This document shows positions 30,808 to 60,669 of a DNA stretch of 60,669 nt, one piece after another. The notes below the pieces were generated by a model. It ran no database searches, was not told the DNA's origin, and saw nothing but the letters and a program-made list of their open reading frames with translations. Position 1 is the stretch's first letter. Every line of letters begins with the position of its first letter. Both the position numbers and the translations under genes were made by a program. Origin of the DNA: Luteitalea sp. (GTDB lineage: Bacteria > Acidobacteriota > Vicinamibacteria > Vicinamibacterales > Vicinamibacteraceae); the NCBI GenBank assembly GCA_009377605.1, contig WHTT01000037.1, forward strand, positions 1-60,669, written 5' to 3'.

Positions 30808-30808
30808 C

Positions 30809-33882: not shown

Positions 33883-36762
33883 CTAGTCGACGATGACCCA
33901 CGATTCCCCGGCCTTCTTCAAGCGCCAGGTCACGTTGAGAGAGCCCGTGGGCGGCAGGCCTCCGCGCTTCCAGACGTAGTCGTAGCGTAAGAAGCACTTG
34001 ACCGTGGCGCTCTGACCGTCTGGAGCAATCTCGATGGAGGGATTGAGAATCGTGAGCGTGACCGATCGCAGCAGGGTGCCATAGGTCTGGGGAAATCCTT
34101 CGAACCCGGGCTGGAGCGCACGGATCTTGGCTTCGCTCAGGCTGCTGTAGGCCTCCTCGTACGCGTTCAGCACGCGACGAATTGCGGCGCGCTCAGTAGT
34201 CTGCATGGTGCCGGGCTTGGACGCGCGGGAAGCGCGCTCGGTACCAGCCGACGATGCGTCCCGTGAGGGGGAGGGCTTCTCCGTGCCCTTGCGTGGAGTG
34301 TCATCGGTCTTAGCGGTCGTGTCGCGTTCGCGGTCCGAGGGAGGCGAGACCGAACCGTTACCGTCTCTTTCTCTGGGTTCCCCGACCCCAGAGGCTGTTT
34401 TCGTCTGGCGGTCGCGGGCGCTCTCCGAAGCGCGCGGCCTTGGTTTACTGGCTGGCGGCTTCGTCGAGGCTTCACGCTCGTCCTCGAGCCGTGCCGCCTC
34501 GCGCTCAGTCGTGGGGCGGTCTGGCACCGGAGCGACGTCAGGCGGCACAGTCGATGACGCCGCCGGCGGTTCTACCGTGTCCGACGACGTTTCCGCGGGC
34601 GCACGGCTCGTCGTCGACCGTGCGGCTGTCGGGAGCACCGACTGGGCGGCGTGAGGCCAGCGAACCACCATGATTGCCGCCACGGCGATCAGGACCAATG
34701 CGCCGACGACTACCAAGCTCCGTCGATCTTGCAGAAGGCGGCGTGTCTGCAGCCCAGCCTGCCGCCCAGGCTGGCGCTGTGTGTTGCGCACGACTGCCGC
34801 AGCCCGACCTCTTCCGCTGCGCGTGTATGCACCGGCGACCGCCGCGGTGCGCCTCGCAGGGGCGATCATGCGCTCTCTGACGTAGTAACCGACAGCACGC
34901 CTGCTTCCGACACCGCGGCTGCGCAAGGCCTCCCATCGCTCTGTCCGCTTCTGGCGCGTCCGTGCCCGTCGAATGTCGCGGCGTGCGTGTGAGACAAGGG
35001 GATGGTCCAAGCCGTTCTCATCCAGCACGCCGAGCGCAGCAACCAACTGCCCTTGGTTGGCCAACGCACGCGCCCGTGCGACGGCGTCCCGTGCCACGCG
35101 GAGGCGCTCGGCCCCAGACGAGGCGGCGCGTCGGAGCGCCTCCACGGCCGAGGCGTGCGCCTCGTCTTCTGGCGCCTGGTCGATCAGCGCCACGGCTTCG
35201 TCGAAACGTTGACCCCGGATGGCTTCTCGTGTGGCAGCCAGCACAGCAGAGATACGCTGCTCGCGCTCTCGGTGGTCTTCCTCGCGTCGTTGCAGCGCCT
35301 GTTCCTCGTGACGCCGTTCTCGCTGCGCGACCTCCGCCCTGAGCTCTTGAAGCGCCTGCGTGACCACCACGTGTGGGGGCGCGTACGCTTCGAGGTCGCC
35401 AAGTGCTCCGGAGACGTCCCCCTTGGCAAAGCGCTCCCGCGCCTGCCTCACGGCCTCCTCGGCTGCTCGGAGCGCCTGGGCTCGTCTCCGCCCGGCAGTA
35501 ATGGCTGCTTCTACGCGTGCCCGGAGCTCGAGCGCTTCGGAGCTCTGGGCGTCCAGCACGAGCGCCTCGGCGATGGCTCTCAACGCAGACTCGTGGGCAC
35601 CGTCTTCCAGCTTTGCATGCGCGCGCTGCAGCGATGCCCGCACGGCACGATTCCGCTGCTCCGCGCGCTCCTGGTCGATTGCCGCGCGCTCGAGCTCGCG
35701 TCTGAGTGCCAACGCTTGCGGAAGGTTCGGGGCGCGCAACGTGGCGCGCCCAATCAAATCGGAGGCCATCGCGAGCTGGCCAGCGCTGAGGTGCTCAGCC
35801 GCTTGTTGGAGCCATGTGTCGACCTCGCGCCCGGCCTCCTCGGCGTTATCAGGCTGCGGGCCGAGCTTTCGCGGTCTGCTCGGTGTCGGCGTCGGGACGA
35901 TGATGGTCGCCTCGTAGGTCGCGTCGAGCGCCGCGTCTCTCCCTTCGCCTTCGAGCCGGTGGCGCGCACGCTCGATATCGGCGCGCAACGTGAGCAGGTC
36001 CTGATACCGTGCGCCTGGCGTCTTGGCCAGACAACGCGAGACCATCGTGACGAGCTCCGCGTCCAAATCAACACAGAGCTCCGAGATCGGTACCGGCTCG
36101 GCGTGCATGATCTTGGAGATCACCTCCACGAACGTGCCGCTGAACGCCTGTCGGTAGGAGAGGATCTCGTAGAAGACCGCACCTACCGAAAAGATGTCGC
36201 TGCGATGGTCGAGGGCATCGGCGGACACCTGCTCCGGCGACATGTAATTCACCGTGCCCACGAGCGTCCCCATCTGCGTCAGACCGGGCCCCGCCATGCG
36301 AACGATGCCGAAGTCGAGCACCTTGAGCACGCTCTGGTTATCGACCATGAGGTTGGCCGGTTTCACATCGCGGTGCACGATGCCGGCACGATGGGCGCAC
36401 GCAAGACCGGCGCAGAGGTCCTCGAGAAGCTTGAGGCGATAGCCGAGTGGAAGGATCGCGCGTCGGCGCGTGAGCTCGGCCAGCGATTCGCCGGCGACGT
36501 ATTCCATGGCAATGAACGGCCGCCCGTCGTGGTCGCCGAGCTCGTAAATGGTGACGATATTTGGATGGGCCAAGCGCGCGATCGCGCGCGCCTCTCGCTC
36601 GAAGCGCTTCAGGAGCTCCTCGTGATCGAATTCCCGCAGCAGTTTCAGGGCGACGAGCCGGTCGAGCTTGGCGTCGTGGGCGAGGTACACCTCCGCCATC
36701 CCGCCGCGACCCAGCCGCTCGTGCACGGTATACTTGCCGATCCTGGAGGGGAGGCCGGACAT
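33883..36762 (-). CDS. PknB-type serine/threonine protein kinase with a membrane segment and NTF2-like tail
   Basis: 959 residues. The kinase domain (residues ~8-270) is complete: RLGRGGMAEVYLA glycine loop, Lys40, Glu57, HRDVKPAN (130-137), DFG (150-152), SPE. Then a long Ala/Arg/Glu-rich helical region with TPR-like units (about 310-600), a basic stretch, one membrane helix (VVVGALVLIAVAAIMVV, about 680-700), a Pro/Ser/Thr-rich low-complexity linker, and a C-terminal ~110-residue domain resembling DUF4440/NTF2-like folds (exported side). The most likely substrates or readers nearby are the FHA-domain proteins encoded divergently and in the lanthipeptide export operon. This link is inference. 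Confidence 0.9.
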   Translation of the reverse strand: MSGLPSRIGKYTVHERLGRGGMAEVYLAHDAKLDRLVALKLLREFDHEELLKRFEREARAIARLAHPNIVTIYELGDHDGRPFIAMEYVAGESLAELTRRRAILPLGYRLKLLEDLCAGLACAHRAGIVHRDVKPANLMVDNQSVLKVLDFGIVRMAGPGLTQMGTLVGTVNYMSPEQVSADALDHRSDIFSVGAVFYEILSYRQAFSGTFVEVISKIMHAEPVPISELCVDLDAELVTMVSRCLAKTPGARYQDLLTLRADIERARHRLEGEGRDAALDATYEATIIVPTPTPSRPRKLGPQPDNAEEAGREVDTWLQQAAEHLSAGQLAMASDLIGRATLRAPNLPQALALRRELERAAIDQERAEQRNRAVRASLQRAHAKLEDGAHESALRAIAEALVLDAQSSEALELRARVEAAITAGRRRAQALRAAEEAVRQARERFAKGDVSGALGDLEAYAPPHVVVTQALQELRAEVAQRERRHEEQALQRREEDHREREQRISAVLAATREAIRGQRFDEAVALIDQAPEDEAHASAVEALRRAASSGAERLRVARDAVARARALANQGQLVAALGVLDENGLDHPLVSHARRDIRRARTRQKRTERWEALRSRGVGSRRAVGYYVRERMIAPARRTAAVAGAYTRSGRGRAAAVVRNTQRQPGRQAGLQTRRLLQDRRSLVVVGALVLIAVAAIMVVRWPHAAQSVLPTAARSTTSRAPAETSSDTVEPPAASSTVPPDVAPVPDRPTTEREAARLEDEREASTKPPASKPRPRASESARDRQTKTASGVGEPRERDGNGSVSPPSDRERDTTAKTDDTPRKGTEKPSPSRDASSAGTERASRASKPGTMQTTERAAIRRVLNAYEEAYSSLSEAKIRALQPGFEGFPQTYGTLLRSVTLTILNPSIEIAPDGQSATVKCFLRYDYVWKRGGLPPTGSLNVTWRLKKAGESWVIVD

Positions 36763-36889
36763 GGGGTCCCCGGCGATGCTCGAACGCCGAATTTCTCGGA
36801 TTCTACTTCATCGCCCCAGCCGCCCGTCTATCGCGGCGGCAGGCGGAAGCGAGCTGACGCAGGCAGCTCATCCGGGATGAATGGGCCGC

Positions 36890-36895
36890 TATAAT
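36890..36895 (+). promoter_or_regulatory. -10 box upstream of the FHA gene
   Basis: A perfect TATAAT 24 bp before the FHA-protein start codon. No good -35 is seen at 16-18 nt. It lies in the 156-bp gap between the divergent kinase and FHA genes. Confidence 0.45.
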
Positions 36896-36918
36896 GCGAT
36901 TTTGGCCAAGGATGGCGC

Positions 36919-37938
36919 ATGGAGCACGAAGACCTGGATGTGGACGTCTCGGCCCTCACGGCGCTCATCGAGCTGAGGAAGCAGGAAGAGCTCCTCGATT
37001 CATACTGCCGCCGAGCCGACGAGCTCAAGGGCCGGGTCGATGCCGCGGTGTTCGATCGCGTGACCAATGACTACAGCACCCGCCGACGCGCACTCGAGGA
37101 GCAGGCAGCTCCGCTAAAGGTGCGCGCAAGCACCGAGTATCGCAAGCTACGGCTCCTCTACGCGCGGGTGCAGCGCACACACGATGCCGCCAAGCTCGAT
37201 AAGGAAGAGGTCGAGTTTCGCCATGCGATTGGCGAGATCGACGATGCCGCCCTCGCCGAGCGCGTCGGCGAACCGGACGAGATCTTGGCGAAGTGTGCGA
37301 GCGAGATGGCGGCCCTCGACGAGCAGGAAGCGCTCTTTCGTGACGCCTGTCCCGAGCTGCCGGTTGGCGAGGAGGCGATCCAGGAGCTCCCATTACCGGA
37401 GTCTGCGTCATCCTCAGACGAAGAGGGTATGGGGGGGACACCCATCGATGGAGAGCCGGCGGAGGCAGAGAGTGACCTGACGCGTGAGGTGCCGAACGCC
37501 CTCCATCTGGTGGACGGCGGTTCCGCAGTACCAGTGGACGGGACGGCTGAAACGCCGGTACCAGACACCATCGACGGCGCATCCCTGGAATCGAGCGAAG
37601 CCAACGAGCAGACCTTCATCGTTCCCAAAGCGATGCTGCTGAGCGACGAGGACGAGGGGAAGTCGATCAACTATCCGCTGGGAGCTGTGAATTACATCGG
37701 TCGGTCCCCGGACAATCAGCTCCAGCTTTCGCGTCCAGGCGTCTCCCGCCGCCATGCCGTGATCATGGCCACGGCCACGGGTGCTTATACGATACGCGAC
37801 CTCAACTCTCAGAACGGCACCTACATCAACGGGGAGCGCATCAAGGAAGGGCCGCTCGAGGACGGTGATCGCATCTCGATTGGACAAGTGGATTTGGCGT
37901 TTCGAACGACTGTCGACGAGGCCCGTCCGCAGAGCTGA
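36919..37938 (+). CDS. FHA-domain protein with N-terminal coiled coil
   Basis: 339 residues. The first ~140 residues are charged and helical (LTALIELRKQEELLDSYCRR and following), probably a coiled coil. A Glu/Ser-rich acidic linker with possible phospho-acceptor sites follows. Residues ~252-330 form a complete FHA domain: YIGRSPDNQLQL, GVSRRHAV and LNSQNGTYINGERI, with all phosphothreonine-binding positions intact. Divergent from the PknB kinase gene and 20 bp upstream of the STAS gene, so it is a natural phospho-reader for that kinase. Ribosome site AAGGA 8 nt before ATG. Confidence 0.88.
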   Translation: MEHEDLDVDVSALTALIELRKQEELLDSYCRRADELKGRVDAAVFDRVTNDYSTRRRALEEQAAPLKVRASTEYRKLRLLYARVQRTHDAAKLDKEEVEFRHAIGEIDDAALAERVGEPDEILAKCASEMAALDEQEALFRDACPELPVGEEAIQELPLPESASSSDEEGMGGTPIDGEPAEAESDLTREVPNALHLVDGGSAVPVDGTAETPVPDTIDGASLESSEANEQTFIVPKAMLLSDEDEGKSINYPLGAVNYIGRSPDNQLQLSRPGVSRRHAVIMATATGAYTIRDLNSQNGTYINGERIKEGPLEDGDRISIGQVDLAFRTTVDEARPQS

Positions 37939-37958
37939 GCACGCGCAGCCGAATCCCC

Positions 37959-38495
37959 ATGGAGGTCAAGGTCGATCGGCAGGACGAGTTGGTGACGGTC
38001 GCCTTGCTTGGCACCGTGGATGGTCGAGCGGCTGTCGAGCTCGAGCGGATACTGCTCGAGACTGCGCGCGATGGCGTGCGGTTCTTGGTCATCGATTTCA
38101 GTGCTGTCAGGCTGTTCGAAGGTGCCGGCATCCGTGTCCTGATCATGCTGAGGCGCAAGCTGGACGCGGCGCAAGGGATGCTCATCCTGTGCGCGCTTCC
38201 TCCTCACGTGCACGACGTGTTGGACGTGGCGGGCCTTGCGGGTCAATTCACGATTGTACCGACCGGCGCGGACGCATTGGCGTGCCTTCCGACCGCGGCG
38301 CCCGAGGATTCGGAACAAAGAGCGCTTGCCCACCGAGTGGTCCGTCTCCTCACCATTGGAGAATCACTACCCGATCCGGGGCTCACCCCGAGCGCCGATC
38401 GCCGCACGAGCTCCACCACGCTCGCCCACCACGTTGCCGATCTGCTGTCCGACGCGCTCGACCGGGAGAGCAGCCTGCCACGGCCCGATCTTTAG
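37959..38495 (+). CDS. STAS-domain protein (anti-sigma factor antagonist-like)
   Basis: 178 residues. Residues 1-105 form a STAS domain (TVALLGTVDGRAAVELERIL, FLVIDFSAVRLFEGAGIRVL). At the site where SpoIIAA-type proteins have DSSG with the phosphorylated Ser, this one reads EGAG, so the regulatory phosphorylation site is missing. A Ser/Thr/His-containing C-terminal tail of ~70 residues follows. Cotranscribed with the FHA gene. Its end overlaps by 4 bp the end of the convergent HExxH gene. Confidence 0.8.
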   Translation: MEVKVDRQDELVTVALLGTVDGRAAVELERILLETARDGVRFLVIDFSAVRLFEGAGIRVLIMLRRKLDAAQGMLILCALPPHVHDVLDVAGLAGQFTIVPTGADALACLPTAAPEDSEQRALAHRVVRLLTIGESLPDPGLTPSADRRTSSTTLAHHVADLLSDALDRESSLPRPDL

Positions 38496-39670
38496 GTCGG
38501 GCGCGGAGAAGCCAAGCGCCGTTCCAGGCGCTCCTGTAGGTCCTCGGCCGCCAGCTCCTCGAGGCTCAAGCCAATCAGCGCATGAATCAAGCGTCCGACG
38601 CCGGCCGCATCGTCGAGATCGAGCTGTGCACGTTCAAGCGTCTCGAGCCGTTCCGTGGCACGATGCACGAGCTGCGCCACGACCGCGAAGGCGCGCGGCG
38701 ACAACGGCGGCTCGCCGCAGTACTGCGCCAGGCGACCGCCGGATCGGAACGACGGATACGCCTCGAGTCCTAGGAAGCGCCGTGCCAGCTCGCCGTGGTA
38801 CTTGCCGAAGGCTCGAACCAGCCCGATGAAGTCCGCCACGAGCTCGTCGGCCGCGTGGCTGCGCAGGGCGCCGAAGAGACGCCACGTGACGTAATGCGTC
38901 AGCTCGTGCTCGCGTCGAATGACCAACGACCGGGCCAGCCACTCCTGCCCTGAAATTCCGGCATCCTCGGCCGACACATCGCTGTAGGGTCCGGAGCTGA
39001 GCAGCACGAATCGGTCCTGATACAGCTCCTTGCGTTGACCGAACGCACGGAGCTCGCTCGACCATGCTTGTTCGTCGCCGGTCGTCCCTTGTCGCTGCTC
39101 CCAATGGGTCCGATACGCGGCGACCCGGTCCCAGTTCGTCAACCCCTTGACCAAGCAAGCCCCCATCGCGGCCGGCACCGAACGAGGCTCGTTGCGTTCC
39201 GTGAACGCTTGCACAAGGGCGACGAAGTCGTCGCGACATGGGGCGACGACAATAGGGATGCAGCCTCCAGCGCTCGGCGCAATCATCAGCTCGAGGTGCG
39301 CCGGCTCGCGCAGGACCAGGCCGGGCGCGAAGGCCGCTGCCGCACCAAAGTCGCCGCGTCGGGTGGCAGCGCGGTAAGCTGGATCGTGGCTCACATTCGT
39401 GCGGATCGGAAAGCGAAGCTGCGGGAACACCGCCTGGAGTGCATCGAACGCACCGACGCGTCGGGCCTCGCGCTCGTACAGCCGCCAGCGCTCGACGTGC
39501 GGCTCGTCGGCGAGCGGCCACCGCTGGGATGTGATTGGTGCGCGGTAGGGATTCTCGGTGTAGGCGAGCACCTCGCCCGCAACGTCGCGCGCCACGCCGA
39601 GGCGGTCGAGCAGTTGCGCACGTTCCTCTCTATGCCAGTTGCCGCCTTGCGAGCTCGGCGAACTTACCAT
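38492..39670 (-). CDS. Putative HExxH metalloprotein in the peptide export operon
   Basis: 392 residues, no signal peptide and no family I can name with certainty. The most telling part is EHELTHYVTWRLFG, an HExxH zinc motif (about residues 251-256), followed ~20 residues later by ADELVADFIG, which could give the third (Glu) ligand as in gluzincins. A Cys pair and an IAPSAGGCIPIVVAPCRDDF segment precede it. It starts 41 bp inside the end of the FHA-ABC exporter gene and is the last gene of the tolC-tolC-hlyD-ABC-ABC operon, so a role in peptide processing or export is plausible. Enzymatic activity is inferred from the motif only. Confidence 0.6.
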   Translation of the reverse strand: MVSSPSSQGGNWHREERAQLLDRLGVARDVAGEVLAYTENPYRAPITSQRWPLADEPHVERWRLYEREARRVGAFDALQAVFPQLRFPIRTNVSHDPAYRAATRRGDFGAAAAFAPGLVLREPAHLELMIAPSAGGCIPIVVAPCRDDFVALVQAFTERNEPRSVPAAMGACLVKGLTNWDRVAAYRTHWEQRQGTTGDEQAWSSELRAFGQRKELYQDRFVLLSSGPYSDVSAEDAGISGQEWLARSLVIRREHELTHYVTWRLFGALRSHAADELVADFIGLVRAFGKYHGELARRFLGLEAYPSFRSGGRLAQYCGEPPLSPRAFAVVAQLVHRATERLETLERAQLDLDDAAGVGRLIHALIGLSLEELAAEDLQERLERRLASPRPT

Positions 39671-42600
39671 CGTGCTCCATCAGCTCCCGATAGGTGCCCA
39701 TCTCGACGATCTGTCCTCCTTCGAGGTAGCAGATCTTGTCGGCGTTGATCACGGTGCTCAGGCGATGCGCAATGACGATGCGGGTTGCTTCCATCTTGTC
39801 GAGGCTCTCGGTCACGATGGCCTGTGTGCGATTGTCCAGAGCGCTCGTCGCCTCGTCGAGATAGATGATCTTCGGCTTGCCGACGATCGCCCGCGCGATC
39901 ATGAGGCGTTGCCGCTGGCCTCCCGACAGCGTCCCGCCGCCTTCAGATACGTAGGTATGCATACCCATCGGCATCTGGCGGATGTCCTCGGCGAGGCCGG
40001 CCTTCTCCGCCGCCTCCCACGCCTCCGCGAGGCTGCGCGACGTCACGCCGATGATGTTGCGATAGATCTCGGTCGGCATCACGCGACTCACTTGGAGCAC
40101 CACGCCAATCTGCTGGCGTACCATCCGCAGGTCCAGCGACGACAGATCCTGTCCATCGTAGAAGATCGATCCGCTCGTTGGCTGCTCGAACCCCAGCATC
40201 AGCCGCATGAGCGTGGACTTGCCACAGCCCGACGGGCCAACGAAGGCGACGAGCTTACCGGGGTTGATCTTGAGCGAGAGGGTCTTGATGATCCAGGGGC
40301 CATCGCTGCTGTATCTGAAATGGACGTGCGACAGCTCGATCTCGCCCCGAAGCTTCCCCGGGAACGCCTTCGAGCGGTCGACTTCAGGGGACGTCGTCAG
40401 GATCGGCTTCAAGCGCTCGTAGAACGGGAGGATGCGGAGCAATTGGAGCGACGCATCACCCAGCGCCTGCATCGCCGCAAGAAAGAGCCCGTAGGCCGCA
40501 GTGAACGCAATGAAATCGCCGGTCGTGAGTCCCGGCTCGTTGGATGCGGCGGCCCGCTGCTGCTCGCCGATGACGACATAGAAGATGGCGATCGACGACA
40601 CCACCGGGAACACAGCGCTGAAGACGGCGACGGCGCTCTGGATGGTGCCAACCGTGAAGCTCAGACGACGCTGCCGAGCAAACTGCTGCGCCCAGACGCG
40701 GAAGGCATGCGGCTCTGCCCCAGAGATACGCAGCTTCGAGACGCCGCTGATCAAGTTGAGCACGAGACCGGCGATCTGACCGATCAATTGAACTTCTCTG
40801 CGCTGGTATCGGAGCTGTGAGTAGTTGCCGACCAGGGTGACGCTCACGTAGACGATCGTCAACGCGACCGCCAACAGCGCCAGGTGCATGCTGTAGGTGA
40901 ACATCTGGACGACAAAGAACACCCCGCTCAGCGAGCCCAGAATCGCCGCGACGCCGGCACCGGAGATCAGTTGCTGAATCTGATCGACACCGTTCGCGCG
41001 ATCGGCGAGGTCTCCCGCAGCATACGTCCGGAAGAAATTCGCGGGCAGGTTCAACAACCGATCCCAGATCGCCGTCTGCAGCGCGTTTTCCATCCGGGCC
41101 TGTAAGCGCACGGTCGCGACGCCCTGGGTCAGCTTGAAGAGCGATCCCGCGAGCGCCGCGAGAAACAGCGCCAGGCCGAAGACCACGAGTGATGAACGGT
41201 CCGCCTGCGGGATCGCCGAGTCGAAGAGCTGACCCGTGAGGTAAGGCGTTGCCGTGCCGAAGATGCCGATCGCGATGGCGGTGACAACGAGCCACCGGAC
41301 GTCGCTCTTGACGCCGCGTGCCGCGAACCGGCCAACGTCGACCACCGACAGCGGCCCGTCCGGAAACGGACGGTAGAACGTGTAGGCGAACGGGGCGAGT
41401 CGCGCCGCCACCGCTTCGGTGACCGGCGCGCGACGCCCCGATCTGGGATCGACATACACGTACTCGTTTGCGCCTCCCGGCAGCAGCGCGACCGGGAGGG
41501 CGCTTTCGCTGAGCTGCCCCAGCAGGGGGCCGTGATCGCGGCTCCACCAGTCGTCGCGAAGCGCGACGACACGTGTCCGGAATGCTGACGCCGTTGCGAT
41601 CGCGGAGACCATCTCTTCGTACGTCAAGTCTTCGGCCGAGGCTGGAGGCCGTCTGACGTCCATTCCCAACGCGTGACCAACCAAGGTGCAGGCTTTGAGC
41701 ACCGGTTCGGTTGCCACGGAGTCCAGGAACTCGCGGGGTGTGACCGCCTCGGCCCGGAGAACCGCTCCAATGGCGTCATACGCCGCTTCCTGCGCTTCGT
41801 CTTGGTGACGCGCCTTTCGCCGCAGCCGCACGTACTCCTCGGCTGCCGCGAGCTGCTTTGCGACGAACTGGCACTCGTAGAGAACCTGATGGAAGACATC
41901 GAGACTGTGCCAGAACGCGGTCTCTCGAATGACCTCGGCTGTCGGCCGCGGCGTCAGCGTCAGATCGCCGAGCTCGTCGCCAATCGGGCGGATCCAGGAA
42001 TCCGGCGTTACCGGAAAGAGCGCTCGCTTGCGCGGGAATACGGGTGTGCTGAGGTCGTCGAACAAGATGCCGCCGCTCCAGGCATCCACCCAGAGAACGC
42101 CTTCCGCCGCCGTGGCCTTGCTCTCGCGGTCCAGCGTGCAGGTCCGCCCAGACTCCAGCACCTGTTCGCCGGCGCGCTTGACCGGGATGTCGCGCGCCAG
42201 CGCCTTCGAGAGCGTCGTAATCCAGGTGTCGACGAGGGCCGCTATCGTGTCGACCTGCTGTGGCGTCCTTGCCAGCTCGCGCAGACGCGACAGACCGATG
42301 CGGCGTAGCCACGTGCCCGGCTTCGCAACGGCGAGGAACCCTGAGTCGCATCCGGGTCGGCGCAAGTCGAAGCCAAAACAGCACTGGCCGGGCATCACGC
42401 CAAGAAAATGTGACCGCGGCCCGACCGGATGTCCCTTTTCCAGCGCCACCGTGAAGACGAGCAGGCCACCGGACACCACGTACCAGAGGCTCGTTGAATC
42501 GTCGAGGAGGAACGGATGGTGCGCAACGGCTTCGATCAGCTCGCCTTCGTCCTCGATTCGCCGTGTTCTCGCCAAGAGGCTCGCGGGCGCCGGGATGACT

Positions 42601-43304
42601 ACGGTCTCACTGAAGTCGAGAATGTTGAGATCGACCTGTGCCGTCGGGTCGTCCTGACCGAGACACTCGAGCACAATCTGGTGGCCAATCCGTATCTGAT
42701 CGCCGGGCCGTAGATCGGCGCTGGCGACTTGCCGGCTGCCCATCCACACGCCGCCTTGGCTGTCGAGGTCGACGATGCGCAGGCCGCTCGATGTGCGCTC
42801 GAGGCGGGCATGCCGTCGCGAAACGTGCTTCTCGCCAAGGACGATGTCGGAGGAGGGGGCGCGTCCGATCGTGGCGGCGTCGCCATCGAGCTGGAAGATG
42901 GTGCCTTCACGAACGTGCTCGCCACCATGGACCACCTTGAGCGCGAGCGGCGGAGCCGGTGCTCGAGGCGCTACGGGCTGAGCCTCGACGGGCGACGAGA
43001 CGCCACCGGTTAGCGGGCGACATTCGAAAACGGTCGATCCAATGCGAAACTGCTGACCGGGCGCGACCACCGTCTCAGCCACGCGATCGGCCCCGACCCA
43101 GACACCGTTGCCGCTGCCGAGATCCACCACACGGATGCCCGAGGGTGTCCATTCCACACGGGCATGCCGCCGCGACACGCTCGGATCCGTGAGCACCACG
43201 CCACAGCTGCCGTCGCGGCCGATGATCACCGATGAATCGACACGAATTGCGTGGTCGGATGGTTGACCCTCGGTGGTGGCGACTACACGGAGGAGAAAGA
43301 CCAT
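39630..43304 (-). CDS. NHLM-type ABC exporter with two N-terminal FHA domains
   Basis: 1224 residues from ATG 43304 (TTG at 43340 is an alternative). Order: FHA1 (residues ~1-85; IGRDGSCGVVL, SVSRRHAR, GSGNGVWVG, all ligand residues present), FHA2 (~120-205; IGRAPSSDIVL, HVSRRHAR, but SQGG where SxNG is usual), a cupin/CNB-like region (~250-380) typical of NHLM transporters (TIGR03797-like), a helical linker, six membrane helices (~650-950), and the ATPase (GPSGCGKSTLMRL, LSGGQRQRLMIARA, IIYLDEATSALD). No C39 peptidase. It is paired with the peptidase-containing exporter upstream. FHA domains on such an exporter imply recruitment or gating by phosphothreonine. Confidence 0.88.
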   Translation of the reverse strand: MVFLLRVVATTEGQPSDHAIRVDSSVIIGRDGSCGVVLTDPSVSRRHARVEWTPSGIRVVDLGSGNGVWVGADRVAETVVAPGQQFRIGSTVFECRPLTGGVSSPVEAQPVAPRAPAPPLALKVVHGGEHVREGTIFQLDGDAATIGRAPSSDIVLGEKHVSRRHARLERTSSGLRIVDLDSQGGVWMGSRQVASADLRPGDQIRIGHQIVLECLGQDDPTAQVDLNILDFSETVVIPAPASLLARTRRIEDEGELIEAVAHHPFLLDDSTSLWYVVSGGLLVFTVALEKGHPVGPRSHFLGVMPGQCCFGFDLRRPGCDSGFLAVAKPGTWLRRIGLSRLRELARTPQQVDTIAALVDTWITTLSKALARDIPVKRAGEQVLESGRTCTLDRESKATAAEGVLWVDAWSGGILFDDLSTPVFPRKRALFPVTPDSWIRPIGDELGDLTLTPRPTAEVIRETAFWHSLDVFHQVLYECQFVAKQLAAAEEYVRLRRKARHQDEAQEAAYDAIGAVLRAEAVTPREFLDSVATEPVLKACTLVGHALGMDVRRPPASAEDLTYEEMVSAIATASAFRTRVVALRDDWWSRDHGPLLGQLSESALPVALLPGGANEYVYVDPRSGRRAPVTEAVAARLAPFAYTFYRPFPDGPLSVVDVGRFAARGVKSDVRWLVVTAIAIGIFGTATPYLTGQLFDSAIPQADRSSLVVFGLALFLAALAGSLFKLTQGVATVRLQARMENALQTAIWDRLLNLPANFFRTYAAGDLADRANGVDQIQQLISGAGVAAILGSLSGVFFVVQMFTYSMHLALLAVALTIVYVSVTLVGNYSQLRYQRREVQLIGQIAGLVLNLISGVSKLRISGAEPHAFRVWAQQFARQRRLSFTVGTIQSAVAVFSAVFPVVSSIAIFYVVIGEQQRAAASNEPGLTTGDFIAFTAAYGLFLAAMQALGDASLQLLRILPFYERLKPILTTSPEVDRSKAFPGKLRGEIELSHVHFRYSSDGPWIIKTLSLKINPGKLVAFVGPSGCGKSTLMRLMLGFEQPTSGSIFYDGQDLSSLDLRMVRQQIGVVLQVSRVMPTEIYRNIIGVTSRSLAEAWEAAEKAGLAEDIRQMPMGMHTYVSEGGGTLSGGQRQRLMIARAIVGKPKIIYLDEATSALDNRTQAIVTESLDKMEATRIVIAHRLSTVINADKICYLEGGQIVEMGTYRELMEHDGKFAELARRQLA

Positions 43305-43391
43305 CTCGGTCACGTGCGGGTCGGGTGTCGTGCTGGCCAAAATCAGGATTCAGGATTCAGGATGCGGGGCGGCTCCCTCCGACGGAGGGCA

Positions 43392-45575: not shown

Positions 45576-45886
45576 CGACGCCTCGGCAAGCTGAGCGTCC
45601 GCGCCGCCCCCTGGGAGGGCGTCCAGCCGACGCCTCAGTCTCGCGGGTCGGAGGCGACGAAGGAGAGGAAGGGCGGATCCACGAAACGCACGGAGGGCAC
45701 CACGGAAGGAGCCATGAAGGACACGAAGAGCGCGAAGAAGTGGGTCAACCAACCGACGTTGTCGAGAATCGCGTGGACCGAATGGCGTCGCCATTGGCGT
45801 TCTCTACTCTCGTCTCCAGTAGCCTTGCGCTCACACCTAGCCCTCGCCCCCGCCCGGCCTTGCCTCTGACCGCTGACGCCTGATCT
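45576..45886. other. 311-bp gap between exporter gene and hlyD gene
   Basis: No gene seen. The plus strand here carries a degenerate minisatellite of the kind CACGGAGGGCACCACGGA (about 45685-45745), and the minus-strand frame upstream of the exporter is Arg/Leu-rich, consistent with the repeat rather than a real domain. Operon continuity across the gap is likely, as no terminator is evident. Confidence 0.5.
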
Positions 45887-51691: not shown

Positions 51692-52105
51692 ATGGGGAGT
51701 ACGGCTCGTCGCGTGTCTCGCGTCTCACATCGACGGATCTGGCTCGGCCTGATTTTGATGGGCTGTGCCGGTTGTGCCGATTCGCCCGTCGGTCCGTCCC
51801 TGAGCGCCGTCACGGTGAGTGACGTGCGCTTGCGGCCGACGACCGAGAATGCCACGCTGTGCTGCTGCCGCGTCCTTGCCACCAGCGCGAACCGCAACAG
51901 CGTGCCTGTTCATGTGACGGTCAAGTTTGCGGCCCATGACGACCAGCGTGAGCAGCCGCTGTCACGGATCCTCTATTTCATCAAGGATTTTCAGCCGGAC
52001 ACGGAGCGGGCAATCGAGGCGTCCGGATTCTTCCTGCCGTGCGCAGCCATCCGCGATGTGCGAATGGAGATCGATGTAACGGGAATAGCGGATCCGCCCT
52101 TCTAG
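51692..52105 (+). CDS. Small lipoprotein of unknown function
   Basis: 137 residues from the ATG at 51692 (GAGAGGGAG just upstream). Lipoprotein signal RRIWLGLILMGCAGC with the acylated Cys, then a ~110-residue domain rich in beta strands with a CCC triplet (NATLCCCRVLA) and one more Cys (LPCAAI). No family recognised. Lies between the export operon and the sigma54 activator gene, same direction as the latter. Confidence 0.7.
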   Translation: MGSTARRVSRVSHRRIWLGLILMGCAGCADSPVGPSLSAVTVSDVRLRPTTENATLCCCRVLATSANRNSVPVHVTVKFAAHDDQREQPLSRILYFIKDFQPDTERAIEASGFFLPCAAIRDVRMEIDVTGIADPPF

Positions 52106-53444: not shown

Positions 53445-53519
53445 CAAGAAGGTGGCGTGTGCGCGGACGGGCCGCGCGCCAGCACAAAATTGGAAACAGA
53501 CTCAATCAGGAGGACCGAA

Positions 53520-53846
53520 ATGGCACAGAAGATGACTCGCGGCGAGGTTCAGGATCTGCTCGGCAAGTTCGCTACCGAGGATGCGAAGTATCGCGAGGCT
53601 CTGCTGGCTGACCCGAAGGGCATCATGGAGCGTCAGCTCAACACGTCGCTGGGCAACTTCAACGTGAAGGCTGTCCAGGACACGGCTGACACGATTCACA
53701 TCGTCGTGCCGCACGTCGCTGCTGAGGGTGAGCTGAGCGACGCGGATCTCGAGAAGGTCGCAGGCGGCTTCTTCGACGGCGGCGACGTCAACGTCGACTG
53801 CGAGGCGCGGCAGGGCGGCGCCAGCGTCATCCAACTCAGCCTGTAG
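53520..53846 (+). CDS. NHLP-leader precursor peptide (lanthipeptide/RiPP precursor)
   Basis: 108 residues, perfect AGGAGG ribosome site. Residues 1-83 resemble the nitrile-hydratase-like leader (LLADPKGIMERQLNTSLGNF, VQDTADTIHIVVPHV) and end with the processing site LEKVAGG (81-83 AGG). The 25-residue core after it contains one Cys (94), Ser102 and Ser107 and no Thr, plus several Gly and Asp. At most one lanthionine ring can form, with Ser C-terminal to Cys. A second GG at 87-88 is an alternative cleavage site. Encoded just before lanM and behind a sigma54 promoter. Leader cleavage by the C39 exporter is inferred. Confidence 0.92.
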   Translation: MAQKMTRGEVQDLLGKFATEDAKYREALLADPKGIMERQLNTSLGNFNVKAVQDTADTIHIVVPHVAAEGELSDADLEKVAGGFFDGGDVNVDCEARQGGASVIQLSL

Positions 53847-53861
53847 TCAGTGCTCGTCTTT

Positions 53862-53910: not shown

Positions 53911-53911
53911 A

Positions 53912-53939
53912 GGTAGGGCCGCCTCGCCGAGGCGGCCGT
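53912..53939. repeat. REP palindrome (GTAGGGC family) before lanM
   Basis: GGTAGGGC + GCCTCGCCGAGGC + GGCCGT, same as at 20130 and 26162. It immediately follows the terminator U-tract. Confidence 0.88.
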
Positions 53940-53964
53940 CATCTGTCCCCAAAGTACCTCGCGC

Positions 53965-56900
53965 GTGACCATCGATGAACGGCAGCAGCTCACGCTTGGC
54001 GCCTGCACGGTCTTCGAGCGCGCCGCGCTCGCTAGAGCACAGACCCCACCTCGAGAGACATTCATCGTCAGCGAGCAAGCCGCCCTCTGCCTCCGCGCGT
54101 GGCTCCAGACAGTCTCGCCAGGCGACCCCGCAGCGTTCGAGCGCCGGCTCGGTTGGGACGGTCTGGATCTCTCGACGGTAACGGCGGGGCTCTCCATGTC
54201 CGCCGGTGGGCTGCCAGAGCCTGACTGGCTGCGCTACGTCGAGGAGGTCATCCTGCTCGCGCCGAGCGTGGCCGATGAGTTGCGCCACCGCCAGCTACCA
54301 GAGAGTGAGTTGTTCGACGCGGAGGAAGGGCCACCGTTCGTGGACCTCCTGGTGCCCGCTCTGCGCGTGAGCAGACGCGCCCGCCGGGCCGCTGTCCCGG
54401 CAGGCACGATCGACGCAGTGCTGTCACCCGTGGCGATCGAGGAGCTCGAGAGGCAGCTGTTACGCGATCTCTCCGGTCTCGCGGCGCTCGCGATGCTCGA
54501 GGATTTCAAGCAGGAACGCACAGCGCATTCCGAGAGCTATGCCGCCTTCACAGACCGGATGCTCAGCGGTAGCCTCACGGCATTCTTTCTGCGCTATCCG
54601 GTCCTTGCGAAGCAGTTGGCGTGGAGTATCGGTCGGTGGGTGCGGACGACGACCGAGCTCGTGCACCGTCTTGAGGAGGACCGCGATGCGATCACTCGTG
54701 AATTCGGCGGCGGAGGGCCGCTCGGGCGCGTTCAGTCGCTCGAGCCGGCGCTGTCGGATCCGCACGACGGTGGCTCCCGGGTCATCGCGCTCCAGTTCGA
54801 GTCGGGCCAGCGACTCATCTACAAGCCAAGACATGTCGACCTCGAGCGCGTCTTCGGCGAGCTCGTCGAGTGGCTAGCCTCTCGCGGTCTGGAGCCACGC
54901 CAGCGGAGCGCGCGCCTGCTCGACCGTCAGGGGTACGGGTGGATGGAGGTCGTCGATGAGGAGCCGTTCTCCAACGTGGACGAGGTCAGGCGCTACTACC
55001 GACAGAGCGGCGGGCTGCTCTGTCTCGCGCATGTGCTACGTGCCGAAGACCTTCACATGGAGAACGTCGTCGCGACGCGTGACGGTCCCGTGCTGATCGA
55101 TCTGGAGCTGACGTTGCAACCCCTGGCTCCTGCTGTGGCCCCGAACAGACCGGCAGGCAGCGCGGCTCTCGAGCACGAACCGCCTGCCGGCGACAATTGC
55201 CTGACGAGTGGCCTTCTGACGTTCATCGATGGATCGGAACGGGTCTTCGACATGGGAGGGCTGCGCGGCACGGGAAGAGGGGCGACAGCAATTGCGCGTC
55301 GAGCATGGCGCGCACTCGGAACCGATGCCATCGGCTACGTCGACGAGTGGACCTTCGAGACCCGCGTCAGAAATCAAGTGGTGCTCGACGGGGTACGGCA
55401 GCGCCCAGACGACTACGCAGACGAGGTCTGCCGCGGGTTCGAGGACGCGTATCGCTTTCTCATGACCCATCGCGACGAGCTCGGGGCGCCGGACGGCCCG
55501 CTGTCTCGCTTTTCTGGCTGCGTCAGCCGCGTGCTCCCGCGATCCAGCAGTCAGTACGGATTGTTGAGGTACGTGCTGGTGCGGCCGCAGTACCTGAAGG
55601 ATGGCTGCCGCTGGAGCGCCGCGCTCGATGCGCTCAATCGAACGCTCAGCCAGGCACGGGAACGACCCGCGTTCTGGCCTCTCGTGGTCGCCGAACGAGG
55701 GGCGCTCGAAGCGCTCGACATTCCACGTTTCACCGTCGTGACCAACGAGACGGCGATCCGCGCCGGCGGGAAGCCGGTCATGAGCGGCTATTTCCGACAG
55801 TCCGGTCTGTCAGCGGTACACGATCGGCTCAATCGCCTATCGGCAGACGATCTACGCGTTCAGCTCGATTACTTGGACCGAGCCCTGCACGAAGCAGTTC
55901 ACACCCGGTTCGAGACCGAACCCCCTGCCGCGCAACGTGACACCGAGGAAGGGGGATCGCCCGCCGTTCTGGTGGCTCACGCAGCATGGATCGGAGCGGA
56001 GCTGCTCCGGCACAGCGGGCGGCGACGACCGGCTCACGGCGAGCCCTCGAAACGCCTGGCTCTGGAGCCGGCTCCTCACCACCACCTGTACGATGGGAGT
56101 GTTGGGCTGCCGATCTTCCTCGCCGCGCTCTCGGTGACCACTGGTGATGAGCGGTGGCGTACGGCCGCGCGCGATGCCGTTCGACCGCTCAGGGCAGCGG
56201 TCGATGGCAACGACAGCAAGTGGGCAGAGGATGCCATCGGCGGCACCTCCGGCCTCGGCTCCATCGTCTATGGCCTGACGACGGTCGGGAGCTTGCTGGG
56301 AGATACGGCTTGTCTCGAGCTGGCACTCCGAGTTGCGGCCCGGCTGACCCTCGCACGCGTTGATTCGGATGCGGCGCTCGACGTGACGAGTGGCGCCGCC
56401 GGCGCCATACTCGGCCTGCTCGCGTTGCATCGCGAAACCGGCGAAGCGTCGTTGCTCGCACAGGCAGTGCACTGCGGCGAGCATCTCTGCGCCTGCAAGC
56501 TTTCGTGCAAAGAGGGCGCCGCGTGGCGGACTGCGGACGGCCGCGTGTTCACTGGCTTTGCGCATGGCGTCGCGGGCATCGCGTACGCGCTTGGCCGGTT
56601 GTTCGAGGTGAGCGGGGACGAGCGCTTCCGTCTCGCCGCCGCGGAAGGATACCGCTACGTCGCCTCACGCTTCCTGCCTGGACAGGCGAAGTGGCCCATC
56701 ATCGACGCCTCGAACGAGCGCCGCCCCGCGAGCGCGCCTGACACTGGTGCGGCGACAATGACGGCCTGGTGCCACGGGGCGCCGGGCATCGGCCTTGCAA
56801 TCGGGCTGGCGAGTGTCGACGTTGTCGACGCGGCACTGCGCGATCAGCTCGATCGAGTGATTGCGAGGGGCGGTGCGGGCTCCTCGTTGCATCGAAGCGA

Positions 56901-57234
56901 TCACCTCTGCTGCGGCAACTTGGGCAGAGCCGAGGCACTGCTCACCGTGGGCCGACGCCTCGTGCGACCCGACGTCGTGCAGGCAGCCGCGCACCTGGCG
57001 CGGCGCGTCACTGAGCGGGCGCGCGCGAACGGCCACTTCTGCCTCACCTCCGACCGGTTCACGTACCGCATCTGGGATCCGGGCTTTTTTCGCGGACTGT
57101 CAGGCATTGGATACGCGTTACTGCGTTTCGCCATGCCTTGGCGCTTGCCCTCCGTCGTGGCGTTCGAGGTACCACCGAACACGTTTCCCGCAACAGCTCC
57201 CCGCCCAACCGCTGAGACGCGTCGGCTGGGCTGA
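53965..57234 (+). CDS. lanM: Class II lanthipeptide synthetase, CCG (ProcM-like) type
   Basis: 1089 residues. N-terminal DUF4135 dehydratase domain with kinase-like residues: Lys287 in LIYKPRHVD, Asp362/His364/Asn367 in EDLHMENV, Asp379 and Glu381 in LIDLELT. C-terminal LanC-like cyclase domain (from ~680), with zinc ligands Cys936 in WCHGAPG and Cys982-Cys983 in LCCGNLG. Having CCG rather than CHG is the hallmark of the ProcM group, which has three Cys ligands and broad substrate tolerance. It would phosphorylate and dehydrate Ser in the precursor and add Cys. GTG start; a GTG only 118 bp after the precursor stop, behind a terminator and a REP. Confidence 0.95.
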   Translation: MTIDERQQLTLGACTVFERAALARAQTPPRETFIVSEQAALCLRAWLQTVSPGDPAAFERRLGWDGLDLSTVTAGLSMSAGGLPEPDWLRYVEEVILLAPSVADELRHRQLPESELFDAEEGPPFVDLLVPALRVSRRARRAAVPAGTIDAVLSPVAIEELERQLLRDLSGLAALAMLEDFKQERTAHSESYAAFTDRMLSGSLTAFFLRYPVLAKQLAWSIGRWVRTTTELVHRLEEDRDAITREFGGGGPLGRVQSLEPALSDPHDGGSRVIALQFESGQRLIYKPRHVDLERVFGELVEWLASRGLEPRQRSARLLDRQGYGWMEVVDEEPFSNVDEVRRYYRQSGGLLCLAHVLRAEDLHMENVVATRDGPVLIDLELTLQPLAPAVAPNRPAGSAALEHEPPAGDNCLTSGLLTFIDGSERVFDMGGLRGTGRGATAIARRAWRALGTDAIGYVDEWTFETRVRNQVVLDGVRQRPDDYADEVCRGFEDAYRFLMTHRDELGAPDGPLSRFSGCVSRVLPRSSSQYGLLRYVLVRPQYLKDGCRWSAALDALNRTLSQARERPAFWPLVVAERGALEALDIPRFTVVTNETAIRAGGKPVMSGYFRQSGLSAVHDRLNRLSADDLRVQLDYLDRALHEAVHTRFETEPPAAQRDTEEGGSPAVLVAHAAWIGAELLRHSGRRRPAHGEPSKRLALEPAPHHHLYDGSVGLPIFLAALSVTTGDERWRTAARDAVRPLRAAVDGNDSKWAEDAIGGTSGLGSIVYGLTTVGSLLGDTACLELALRVAARLTLARVDSDAALDVTSGAAGAILGLLALHRETGEASLLAQAVHCGEHLCACKLSCKEGAAWRTADGRVFTGFAHGVAGIAYALGRLFEVSGDERFRLAAAEGYRYVASRFLPGQAKWPIIDASNERRPASAPDTGAATMTAWCHGAPGIGLAIGLASVDVVDAALRDQLDRVIARGGAGSSLHRSDHLCCGNLGRAEALLTVGRRLVRPDVVQAAAHLARRVTERARANGHFCLTSDRFTYRIWDPGFFRGLSGIGYALLRFAMPWRLPSVVAFEVPPNTFPATAPRPTAETRRLG

Positions 57235-57331
57235 CCGTGCGCGGGCTGTGTGCTATAAGATGCGCGGACCGGTCGGTGCGGCGTGGTGCCGCGCGAGGTT
57301 TCAGCGTAGGCGTCTCTTCGAGGAGCCCTTG

Positions 57332-58756
57332 GTGCGTCGAACGACAGAGCGTCTCGTCGATAGCCTGATTCTCGCGGCCGCGAGCCTTGTCGCCACCCTT
57401 GGCGTCGCTGCCCCGGCACACGGACAAGCGCCACCGCTCGCGCGGCTGATTCCGACAGCCTTGGCCGATGCTGCGCGGGCCGACAACTTCCGAACCCCAG
57501 ACGACCATACCCGACACTTCGTGACCGGGACGGATCTCACACCGGTGCCGGCGGAGTTGAACGCAGCTCTGGCACTCCAGGTGACGACGTTTCCAGTCAA
57601 TCTCGCCTGGCAGGGCCGCCCGAGCACCGCTCTCGACGGTGACGCTGAGGACCCAGCGCGCCTGCCGGTGCCGCGCTCATCGTTTGCGGAGCGCGCCACC
57701 ACGCTCGGGCAGGACTCGTTGAGCTTTGGGTTCGTACAGCAGTCGTTGCACTACAGGGCGCTCGACGGCCTCGACATCGAGGATGGCGAGATTCGATTCT
57801 TCCTCCAGCACAACGACTGTTGCGGGCCGGGAGATGCACCGTCCAGCCCGACCGATCTTCGGCCCGCGTTCGAGCGAGACGTATTGGAGGAGGCGCTGTC
57901 GGTCGACATCGACCGGAACGTGTTTGCATTCCTCCTGAACTATGGCGTGGCTGACCATCTCGACGTTGGTATTGTCGTCCCGCTGGTGAAGGTCGATGTC
58001 CGCACTCGTGTGACCTCACGCCTGTGGCGCACGGCGTCGGCTAACTCGCCGACCACCCACAAGTTCGATCCATTGGAGCTGCAGCATCGCACGAGTTACG
58101 CCAGTGGGGACGCCGCCGGCCTCGGCGATCTCGTGCTCCACGGAAAGTATCGGTTCCTGGAAACAGCAGGCGGAGGGATGGCGGCGAGCCTGAACGTGAC
58201 CCTGCCGACTGGAGAGGCAGAAGAGCTGCTCGGCTCCGGTGTCACTCGGACCGAGGGGCGCGTGATTTGGTCGGAGCGGTTTGGGCGAGTGGGGACGCAC
58301 GTCAACGCGAGCTACACGAGATCAACCGGCGAGTTGCCCGCTGCATACGACGCCCCCGCCGATGCAGCGAGCGCGGACGTGGTGCGCCCACCGGTGGATT
58401 TGACGGTGCCCGATGAGATTGGTGCCGTCGCTGGCGTCGATATCCCACTGGTGCGCCGTGTTGCTGTCTCTGCCGACGTCGTCATGCGTCACCTACGCGG
58501 CCTCTCGCGCTTGGCCGCGGGCGAGACCACGTTTCCATCGCGCGGCCCTGGGGCGCTACCTTCGGCGGCATTCGTCGCTGCGGACGACCTGCAGATGACC
58601 GGTCGCGGGCTCGACGTCACACAGCTCTTCGTGGCTGTTGGCGCTCGCGCGCACCTGGGCGGGCTGCTGGTCCTGAATGCCGATGTGCTGTTTCCGCTCG
58701 CCGACCAGGGCCTGGTGCCACGTGGCGCAGTTGTCGGCTTCAGCCTAGCTTACTGA
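57332..58756 (+). CDS. Exported beta-barrel-like protein with HNxCCG motif (paralogue B)
   Basis: 474 residues from a GTG at 57332 with AGGAG six bases upstream. Signal peptide LVDSLILAAASLVATLGVAA... up to AHGQA. It aligns with the protein at 32329-33792 over its length: RFFLQHNDCCGP, ADHLDVGIVVPLVKVDVRT, GLGDLVLHGKYRF and the closing strand. Predicted outer-membrane barrel. It follows lanM by ~100 bp in the same direction and may be in its transcript, so it could serve as exit or receptor for the product. That role is inference. Confidence 0.8.
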   Translation: MRRTTERLVDSLILAAASLVATLGVAAPAHGQAPPLARLIPTALADAARADNFRTPDDHTRHFVTGTDLTPVPAELNAALALQVTTFPVNLAWQGRPSTALDGDAEDPARLPVPRSSFAERATTLGQDSLSFGFVQQSLHYRALDGLDIEDGEIRFFLQHNDCCGPGDAPSSPTDLRPAFERDVLEEALSVDIDRNVFAFLLNYGVADHLDVGIVVPLVKVDVRTRVTSRLWRTASANSPTTHKFDPLELQHRTSYASGDAAGLGDLVLHGKYRFLETAGGGMAASLNVTLPTGEAEELLGSGVTRTEGRVIWSERFGRVGTHVNASYTRSTGELPAAYDAPADAASADVVRPPVDLTVPDEIGAVAGVDIPLVRRVAVSADVVMRHLRGLSRLAAGETTFPSRGPGALPSAAFVAADDLQMTGRGLDVTQLFVAVGARAHLGGLLVLNADVLFPLADQGLVPRGAVVGFSLAY

Positions 58757-58768
58757 CCTGATTCAATA

Positions 58769-59440
58769 GTGTCTGAGTCCATCGAAATCAACAGCGGTGA
58801 CTTCGTCTTCCGGGAGGGCGAGGCGGGCGGTGAGCTCTACGTGATCGAGGAAGGCCAGGTGGAGCTCATCGCGGGTCCGCACGACCAACGGCGGACGACA
58901 CTCGATGTTGGCGACTTCTTCGGTGAGCGATCGCTTCTCGACGATGTGCCGCGGGAGGTGTCTGCGCGAGCTCTCACCCGCTGTCGACTGCTTCGTCTCG
59001 ACCGTGCAGGCTTCTCGGAGATCGTCCGACAAAGCCCCGAGATCGCGGTGCTGATGGTTCGCCATCTGAGCCGGCGCCTCGGCTCGGGTGGAACCGAGAT
59101 GCCCTCGTCCGCCGTGTTCCTGCACGAGGCGTCGGAGACCGCGATTCCGCTACACCCGCAGTGCACCATCGGCCGGGTCGACCGATCGACGGGTGTGGCG
59201 CCCGACGTGGACCTCACGCCATTCGATTCGGACAAGACATTGAGCCGGCGCCACGCGAAGGTCGCGATGAGGCCCGACGGCTACTATCTGCGAGAGGATG
59301 AAGGGCGCAACGGCACCTTCGTCAATGAACGGCGCCTCGATCCGGGCGTCGAAGTCCGACTCGCGGATGGCGATCGTCTGCGCTTCGGCTTCGTCCACGT
59401 CGTGTTCCGCCTGGCCAGTGGTTCTGACAACACCCCTTGA
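58769..59440 (+). CDS. Cyclic-nucleotide-binding plus FHA domain protein
   Basis: 223 residues, soluble. Residues ~5-115 are a CRP-like cyclic-nucleotide-binding fold (FVFREGEAGGELYVIEEGQV, GDFFGERSLLDDVPREVSAR; the phosphate-binding FGExxLL...R pattern is kept). Residues ~130-218 are an FHA domain (CTIGRVDR, TLSRRHAKV, EGRNGTFVNERRL) with all key residues. No DNA-binding domain. It combines a small-ligand sensor with a phosphothreonine reader. GTG start 12 bp after the barrel gene; no Shine-Dalgarno seen, perhaps read by coupling. Confidence 0.87.
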   Translation: MSESIEINSGDFVFREGEAGGELYVIEEGQVELIAGPHDQRRTTLDVGDFFGERSLLDDVPREVSARALTRCRLLRLDRAGFSEIVRQSPEIAVLMVRHLSRRLGSGGTEMPSSAVFLHEASETAIPLHPQCTIGRVDRSTGVAPDVDLTPFDSDKTLSRRHAKVAMRPDGYYLREDEGRNGTFVNERRLDPGVEVRLADGDRLRFGFVHVVFRLASGSDNTP

Positions 59441-59447
59441 AGCCCGA

Positions 59448-60473: not shown

Positions 60474-60504
60474 GTGAACCTCCAGGTGCAGCCGGCGAAG
60501 GGCA

Positions 60505-60585
60505 CGAGGGGTCTAAAGACCCCTCGCTACGTTCCACACATAGTATCCAATTCGTGCCAAATCAGTTTGGCGTAACTTTGGCACG
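60505..60585. repeat. REP hairpin (TAGCG family) and a TTTGGCACG inverted repeat
   Basis: 60505-60532: GAGGGGTC-TAAA-GACCCCTC followed by GCTACG, same family as 13137 and 28411. Then CGTGCCAAA (60553-60561) and TTTGGCACG (60577-60585), 9-bp perfect arms, in the presumed promoter of the minus-strand lipoprotein gene. TGGCACG equals a sigma54 -24 element, but no matching -12 follows. Confidence 0.7.
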
Positions 60586-60589
60586 CGTC

Positions 60590-60669
60590 CTAATCGTCGT
60601 ACCGGACGAGGAGGGCTGTCACATTGTCGCGACCGCCGCCCTCGAGCGCCTGCGCCAGCAAACGTTCGG
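60590..60669 (-). CDS. C-terminal end of a PP2C-family Ser/Thr phosphatase (partial)
   Basis: Only the last ~25 codons are in the window: LLAQALEGGGRDNVTALLVR ending YDD. The GGxDNxTxxxV pattern, where the Asp binds metal, is the conserved end of PPM/PP2C phosphatases such as Stp1/PstP. It would be the natural antagonist of the PknB-like kinase. The N-terminus is beyond the right edge. Confidence 0.85.
   Translation of the reverse strand, partial: ERLLAQALEGGGRDNVTALLVRYDD

Follow-up and report, generated by a model that had tools for sequence, protein, structure and literature searches.

Post-translational regulation of the export of ribosomally synthesized and post-translationally modified peptides (RiPPs) is little explored. 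In Burkholderia, NHLP clusters were reported to include a large Ser/Thr kinase (Haft 2010; PMC2887384), and the accessible part of that text does not mention FHA domains. Phosphorylation-linked export machines are known elsewhere: Rv1747 of Mycobacterium tuberculosis is an FHA-FHA-ABC exporter with a Thr-bearing linker and its own adjacent Hanks kinase, PknF (PMC3908365), and the type VI secretion system (T6SS) is controlled post-translationally by the PpkA-Fha-PppA system via a TssL-phosphothreonine/Fha/PpkA pathway (PMC3953482). Here, we analyse a class II lanthipeptide/NHLP locus of Luteitalea sp. (Acidobacteriota), encoded on contig WHTT01000037.1, which was analysed as one complete contig of 60,669 bp and is hereafter called the window. 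Its second ATP-binding cassette (ABC) exporter subunit, ABC2, carries two N-terminal FHA domains and is surrounded by genes for further FHA proteins and a Hanks-type Ser/Thr kinase and by the 3' end of a PP2C phosphatase gene. On the basis of sequence comparisons we consider it reasonably probable that the dedicated exporter of this lanthipeptide locus is under phosphothreonine (pThr) control.

Comparison with NHLP/lanthipeptide clusters (PMC2887384; TIGR03793, TIGR03794, TIGR03796 and TIGR03797) reveals the same precursor type, a C39 peptidase-containing ABC1, ABC2, HlyD and LanM, whereas the FHA domains on ABC2, the additional genes for FHA, STAS, cyclic nucleotide (cNMP)-binding/FHA and sigma-54 activator proteins and the two TolC-like genes are different. 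The locus resembles Rv1747/PknF in that its ABC exporter carries a pair of FHA domains at the N-terminus, a Thr-bearing linker is present and a kinase gene is part of the locus; Rv1747, in contrast, belongs to another ABC family with another substrate and lacks LanM, a C39 partner, HlyD and TolC, and the window encodes extra, separate FHA proteins. By analogy, ABC2 of the window would be similar to Rv1747 in its working without being a member of its family. As in T6SS threonine phosphorylation, a locus-encoded kinase, an FHA reader and a PP2C are found at a secretion machine, but the window encodes a type I peptide export system with FHA fused to a transporter subunit, and domain scans detected no T6SS core genes among the locus proteins. 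The STAS protein is shared with Rsb-type partner switching, to which relatives add HATPase_c_2 and FHA-GAF-SpoIIE proteins, whereas the window locus contains neither a HATPase nor a SpoIIE phosphatase. Finally, a cNMP-binding protein beside a bacteriocin-type exporter defines TIGR03896 (cyc_nuc_ocin); the window protein, however, reaches 27.5 bits with this model, whose cut-off is 161, and additionally contains FHA.

We found no description of FHA-linked lanthipeptide export in the open-access literature, subscription papers not being covered. An earlier sequence-only reading of the locus had stated that no lanthipeptide pathway with such control is described, which holds for this literature and has to be qualified by the kinase of the Burkholderia NHLP clusters and by the known Rv1747/PknF pair. 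With pThr readers built into a conserved exporter subunit that is accompanied by FHA adaptors and, in many cases, by a kinase, the idea of phospho-gated peptide export can be tested directly. If true, the logic of Rv1747 and of the T6SS would reach lanthipeptides in the Acidobacteriota, a little-studied group, and the combination of FHA-ABC2, LanM, DUF7005 and a sigma-54 activator provides a searchable signature.

FHA domains of the exporter and their retention in relatives

Gene calls and domain scans recovered all parts listed by the sequence-only reading, i.e. a PknB-like kinase, three proteins with four FHA domains, a STAS protein, a cyclic-nucleotide sensor, which we find joined to FHA, a precursor with LanM and a complete two-ABC/HlyD/two-TolC export line, as well as the PP2C end, which lies below the reach of Pfam and was recognised by its resemblance to relatives (Table 1). 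The sigma-54 activator, DUF7005, a lipoprotein-like open reading frame (ORF) and two outer-membrane proteins, OMP1 and OMP2, come in addition. The FHA domains are distributed over FHA1 (one), ABC2 (two, FHA-A and FHA-B) and the cNMP-binding/FHA protein, cNMP-FHA (one). As the genome contains a total of 11 FHA domains in 6.8 Mb and four of these are located within ~22 kb at the locus, their clustering exceeds chance.

We searched ABC2 in 60 relatives and in 396 genomes of the phylum and used the locus proteins to build models for scanning the neighbourhoods. FHA-fused ABC2 proteins, 39-55% identical to the window protein, define a set of 12 genomes (G000, G015, G059, G026, G143, G357, G350, G392, G335, G386, G327 and G396), which we compared to 18 same-phylum NHLP export loci without FHA on ABC2, all counts being given within the fetched regions. 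A separate FHA gene is present at 12/12 FHA-ABC2 loci compared to 1/18 controls, with FHA1 orthologues at all loci except that of G386 (11/12). STAS and two TolC genes are each found at 11/12 loci, LanM at 10/12 and cNMP-FHA at 9/12, and none of the four occurs in the controls (0/18 each). The sigma-54 activator is kept at 9/12 loci (controls 1/18), the kinase at 7/12 (1/18) and PP2C, the window fragment counted, at 4/12 (0/18), several absences being contig ends (G015, G143, G327). The parts remain together despite varying order and strand, kinase and PP2C lying beside cNMP-FHA and LanM in G059 and the kinase beside FHA1 in the window, and the FHA, STAS and cNMP-FHA parts are kept in many Acidobacteriota families. 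This retention, together with the low retention in same-phylum controls, rejects a chance clustering of the FHA genes, and the presence of FHA-fused ABC2 in other genomes rejects a single-genome oddity. The sequence-only reading had named beforehand a lack of retention in relatives as the result that would make the coupling accidental: FHA-ABC2, the FHA genes, STAS and cNMP-FHA are retained and near-absent in controls, while kinase and PP2C are retained in part. Because the FHA part persists among relatives, protein phosphorylation probably acts as the switch for export, and the comparison argues strongly for a wiring of the exporter to FHA.

A maximum-likelihood tree of 57 ABC2 sequences places all FHA-ABC2 and three FHA-less Acidobacteriota rows in one clade (23 rows, support 100/99) with Verrucomicrobia ABC2 without FHA as its sister, and two gains or losses suffice to explain the FHA fusion. 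A search of named genomes, which partly overlap the 12, gave 178 matching loci; a six-frame scan of the best 80 found FHA on ABC2 in 17, all from Acidobacteriota-named records or matching same-phylum genomes. Among these best 80 of 178 loci none with FHA-ABC2 lies outside the Acidobacteriota, and the cyanobacterial, Bacteroidota, Paenibacillus and Chloroflexota loci show no FHA in the fetched flanks. In an early branch (L116, 6661-9897), FHA is fused to C39-ABC1 and not to ABC2, via a long Pro-rich linker.

The fold of the ABC2 FHA matches GarA/OdhI and Rv1747 FHA-1 (Foldseek), the FHA of EssC also being among the matches. All aligned ABC2 FHA domains share the pThr-pocket signature G-R...S-R-x-H...S-x-x-G, and it is equally invariant in the first FHA of those proteins that have one; in the window, the Gly-Arg, Ser-Arg-x-His and Asn-Gly positions are intact in FHA1, FHA-A and cNMP-FHA. 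The linkers are rich in Thr-containing motifs: in FHA1 linkers (n=16) T-[VILM]-[VILM] occurs 23 times compared to a mean of 5.1 in shuffled sequences, 0/1000 shuffles being as high, and the controls S[VILM][VILM] (2 vs 4.1) and A[VILM][VILM] (6 vs 12.6) are not enriched. In ABC2 linkers (n=16) T-x-x-[VILM] is found 22 times compared to 10.4 (1/1000 as high), with a recurring motif exemplified by SETVVIPAP in the window. We regard this Thr-x-x-hydrophobic enrichment as a lead. Both the conservation of the pThr pocket and the excess of Thr sites favour a gating of maturation or export by phosphorylation.

Kinase, phosphatase and the proposed switch

The window kinase contains the catalytic motifs VALK, HRDVKPAN and DFG. 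In G059, the locus kinase is the top match to it in that genome, with 42% identity over 513 residues and 331 bits compared to 187 bits for the next; of the locus kinases in G026, one is the top match and the other follows closely in second place. In both G059 and G026 the PP2C and kinase genes are neighbours, in G143 PP2C lies beside kinase fragments, and the PP2C fragment of the window matches the C-terminal ends of the PP2Cs encoded at the G059 and G026 loci. Since clear kinase orthology is seen in just one same-order relative, a wiring to this particular kinase is weaker than a wiring to FHA; the conservation supports a kinase/PP2C wiring moderately, and this link is robust only near the lineage of the window. 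Two Verrucomicrobia loci, L117 (2-925) and L122 (1-5298), encode a divergently oriented Hanks kinase beside TolC/exporter genes plus DUF7005 and a sigma-54 activator, and no FHA. These two FHA-less loci suggest that the exporter may have gained its kinase neighbour before FHA was fused to ABC2. In L122, the kinase protein also comprises a very long region resembling a coiled coil.

These data are consistent with a model according to which a Hanks kinase, most probably the one encoded at the locus, would phosphorylate the flexible ABC2 and FHA1 linkers on Thr, and the FHA domains of ABC2, FHA1 and cNMP-FHA would bind these pThr sites intra- or intermolecularly, thereby assembling, clustering or opening the exporter. 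PP2C would reset the exporter by erasing the Thr marks, a second-messenger input would enter through cNMP-FHA, and, through the sensor-less sigma-54 activator, the precursor and LanM genes would be transcribed in step with this state. By analogy to Rv1747/PknF and the T6SS, the better guess is that phosphorylation activates rather than inhibits the exporter. Extended to the whole Acidobacteriota FHA-ABC2 clade, the model would describe pThr-gated secretion of single-Cys lanthipeptides, in which kinase and PP2C write and erase marks on exporter and FHA adaptors and in which a single maturation/export complex integrates second-messenger, partner-switch and sigma-54 inputs. It would parallel, for peptide export, the threonine phosphorylation control of the T6SS; in this extended form we put it forward tentatively.

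Several observations weigh against pThr control of the exporter. The Fisher values for retention (1.5e-7 to 0.02) are too optimistic because the 12 loci share ancestry. Likewise, the linker shuffle test counts related sequences as independent, the motif was spotted by eye before testing, and it is absent from four Pro-rich ABC2 linkers (G327, G386, L106, L111). In FHA-B of the window the Asn preceding Gly is replaced (SQGG, i.e. GG in place of NG), which may weaken pThr binding. The window PP2C is a 25-codon fragment, ERLLAQALEGGGRDNVTALLVRYDD*, at the contig stop, too short for a Pfam match, and the N-terminal remainder was sought at other contig ends of the genome and not found. In G143, G357, G335 and G327 the protein most similar to the window kinase is encoded outside the locus, and the fetched regions of G335, G392, G386 and G327 contain no kinase.

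The last two observations suggest an alternative in which kinase and PP2C are accidental neighbours and the real link between FHA and exporter uses an unlinked kinase, an explanation compatible with phospho-gating and overlapping the one we prefer. Hanks kinases are abundant in these genomes, with 13 (G000) and 46 (G143) matches to the window kinase at E<=1e-30, which would leave room for such an unlinked kinase. However, the G059 locus kinase being by far the best match in its genome over a long alignment, the adjacency of PP2C to kinases or kinase fragments in three genomes and the kinases beside the exporter in the sister Verrucomicrobia argue for a genuine association, and we consider accidental neighbourhood rather doubtful.

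A second alternative would have the phospho-circuit act on transcription, kinase, STAS and sigma-54 activator switching the lanthipeptide genes and the ABC2 FHA merely reporting the state of the pump. The sigma-54 activator, in which Pfam recognises no sensor domain, is widely kept among the FHA-ABC2 loci and RpoN is encoded in the genome. Moreover, a 140-142-residue gene lies beside DUF7005 in G015 and G059 (L040, 4003-4431; L041/L042 in G059), the G015 copy being an RsbW-like HATPase_c_2 protein (Pfam), and an FHA protein of ~540 residues is encoded in G015, G059, G143 and G033, the G015 copy (L040, 2365-3984) being FHA-GAF-SpoIIE (Pfam). The partner-switch set of STAS, HATPase_c_2 and FHA-GAF-SpoIIE is thus complete at the G015 and G059 loci, whereas, judged by gene content, the window locus is such a set reduced to STAS. 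The absence of the switch partners from the window locus, a sigma-54 promoter pattern in the window not above chance and the exporter and not the activator being the fusion partner of FHA make a purely transcriptional role unlikely.

That the FHA domains act as phospho-independent scaffolds, structural adaptors tethering exporter subunits, would fit the Asn missing in FHA-B, the patchy linkage of kinase and PP2C and the presence of FHA in other export machines such as EssC, but is quite improbable given pocket Arg, Ser and His residues invariant in the aligned members and a Thr-specific linker enrichment unexpected for a scaffold.

Layout of the locus, precursor and accessory genes

The coordinates of all features are compiled in Table 1. 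The parts of the NHLP exporter exceed the curated NCBIfam cut-offs, which are 853 bits for ABC1 (TIGR03796), 709 bits for ABC2 (TIGR03797) and 156 bits for HlyD (TIGR03794), and so does LanM (TIGR03897, cut-off 304 bits), which contains DUF4135 and LANC_like domains. The precursor leader covers the full 77-position model TIGR03793 below its cut-off of 50.9 bits and has a GG cleavage site and clear orthologues in relatives.

Table 1. Features of the lanthipeptide/NHLP locus in the window
Feature	Position	Strand	Evidence
OMP1, outer-membrane beta-barrel-like, paralogue of OMP2	32254..33792	+	G059 homologue adjoins PP2C/PknB: 37% over 488 residues, E 7.5e-94
Hanks-type Ser/Thr kinase, PknB-like; putative hydrophobic transmembrane stretch toward C-terminus	33883..36762	-	Pfam Pkinase E 3.5e-46, 158 bits
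FHA1: conserved N-terminal domain, Thr-containing linker, FHA at C-terminus	36919..37938	+	Pfam FHA E 3.3e-21
STAS-domain protein, anti-anti-sigma-like	37959..38495	+	Pfam STAS E 5.6e-13
DUF7005, HExxH motif, putative zinc hydrolase/peptidase	38492..39670	-	Pfam DUF7005 391 bits
ABC2 exporter subunit, two N-terminal FHA; likely start 43313	39630..43340	-	TIGR03797 891 bits; FHA x2 (Pfam)
C39 peptidase/ABC1, leader-cleaving exporter subunit	43392..45794	-	TIGR03796 1084 bits; Peptidase_C39 E 3.4e-34
HlyD-type adaptor, NHLP system	45887..47119	-	TIGR03794 258 bits
TolC-family outer-membrane protein 1	47181..49388	-	Pfam OEP E 8e-30
TolC-family outer-membrane protein 2	49385..51385	-	Pfam OEP E 7e-25
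Small lipoprotein-like ORF	51758..52105	+	Orthologues 47-48%, upstream of sigma-54 activator in G015, G059
Sigma-54 activator AAA+, GSFTGA variant of GAFTGA loop	52243..53310	+	Pfam Sigma54_activat E 4e-56; 65-67% to relatives
NHLP-type precursor peptide, leader end ELSDADLEKVAGG, core with one Cys	53520..53846	+	leader_NHLP 43.5 bits, sub-threshold; 61% to G059 precursor
LanM, class II lanthipeptide synthetase	53965..57234	+	TIGR03897 659 bits; YKPR, WCHG, CCG motifs
OMP2, outer-membrane beta-barrel-like	57260..58756	+	G059 homologue beside LanM; weak Phenol_MetA_deg match
cNMP-binding + FHA protein	58769..59440	+	cNMP_binding E 3.3e-19; FHA E 7.6e-14
PP2C phosphatase C-terminal end, contig-truncated	60590..60667	-	25 codons ...GGRDNVTALLVRYDD*; resembles PP2C ends of G059, G026

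The core of the window precursor contains one Cys and two Ser, and the compared cores contain one Cys apiece, so that at most one thioether ring can form per peptide. The cores of the window, L041, L084, L090, L096, L113 and L122 often share a similar C-terminal pattern (e.g. T-x-V-E-I), which suggests a family of one-ring peptides instead of diversified cores.

In DUF7005, encoded beside NHLP exporters, the residues H255, E256, H259, E276 and D280 in and around the HExxH motif are invariant across 14 orthologues. The AlphaFold model is confident (predicted local distance difference test, pLDDT, 91); a Foldseek search against the PDB gave no significant match and VIA-align a best Z of 5.0 over 72 residues, which is uninformative, so that it is the motif that points to a peptidase role. 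DUF7005 is possibly a metallopeptidase-like enzyme of unrecognised fold.

The locus is flanked by the paralogous OMP1 and OMP2, each with a homologue at the G059 locus, and the flank to its left (25457-31998) is read as a histidine operon from gene order and sequence. At other FHA-ABC2 loci, genes for a GNAT acetyltransferase and a HAD-like hydrolase, not found in the window, recur beside LanM (L081, 7383-8357; L084, 12163-13644) and possibly encode tailoring or accessory enzymes.

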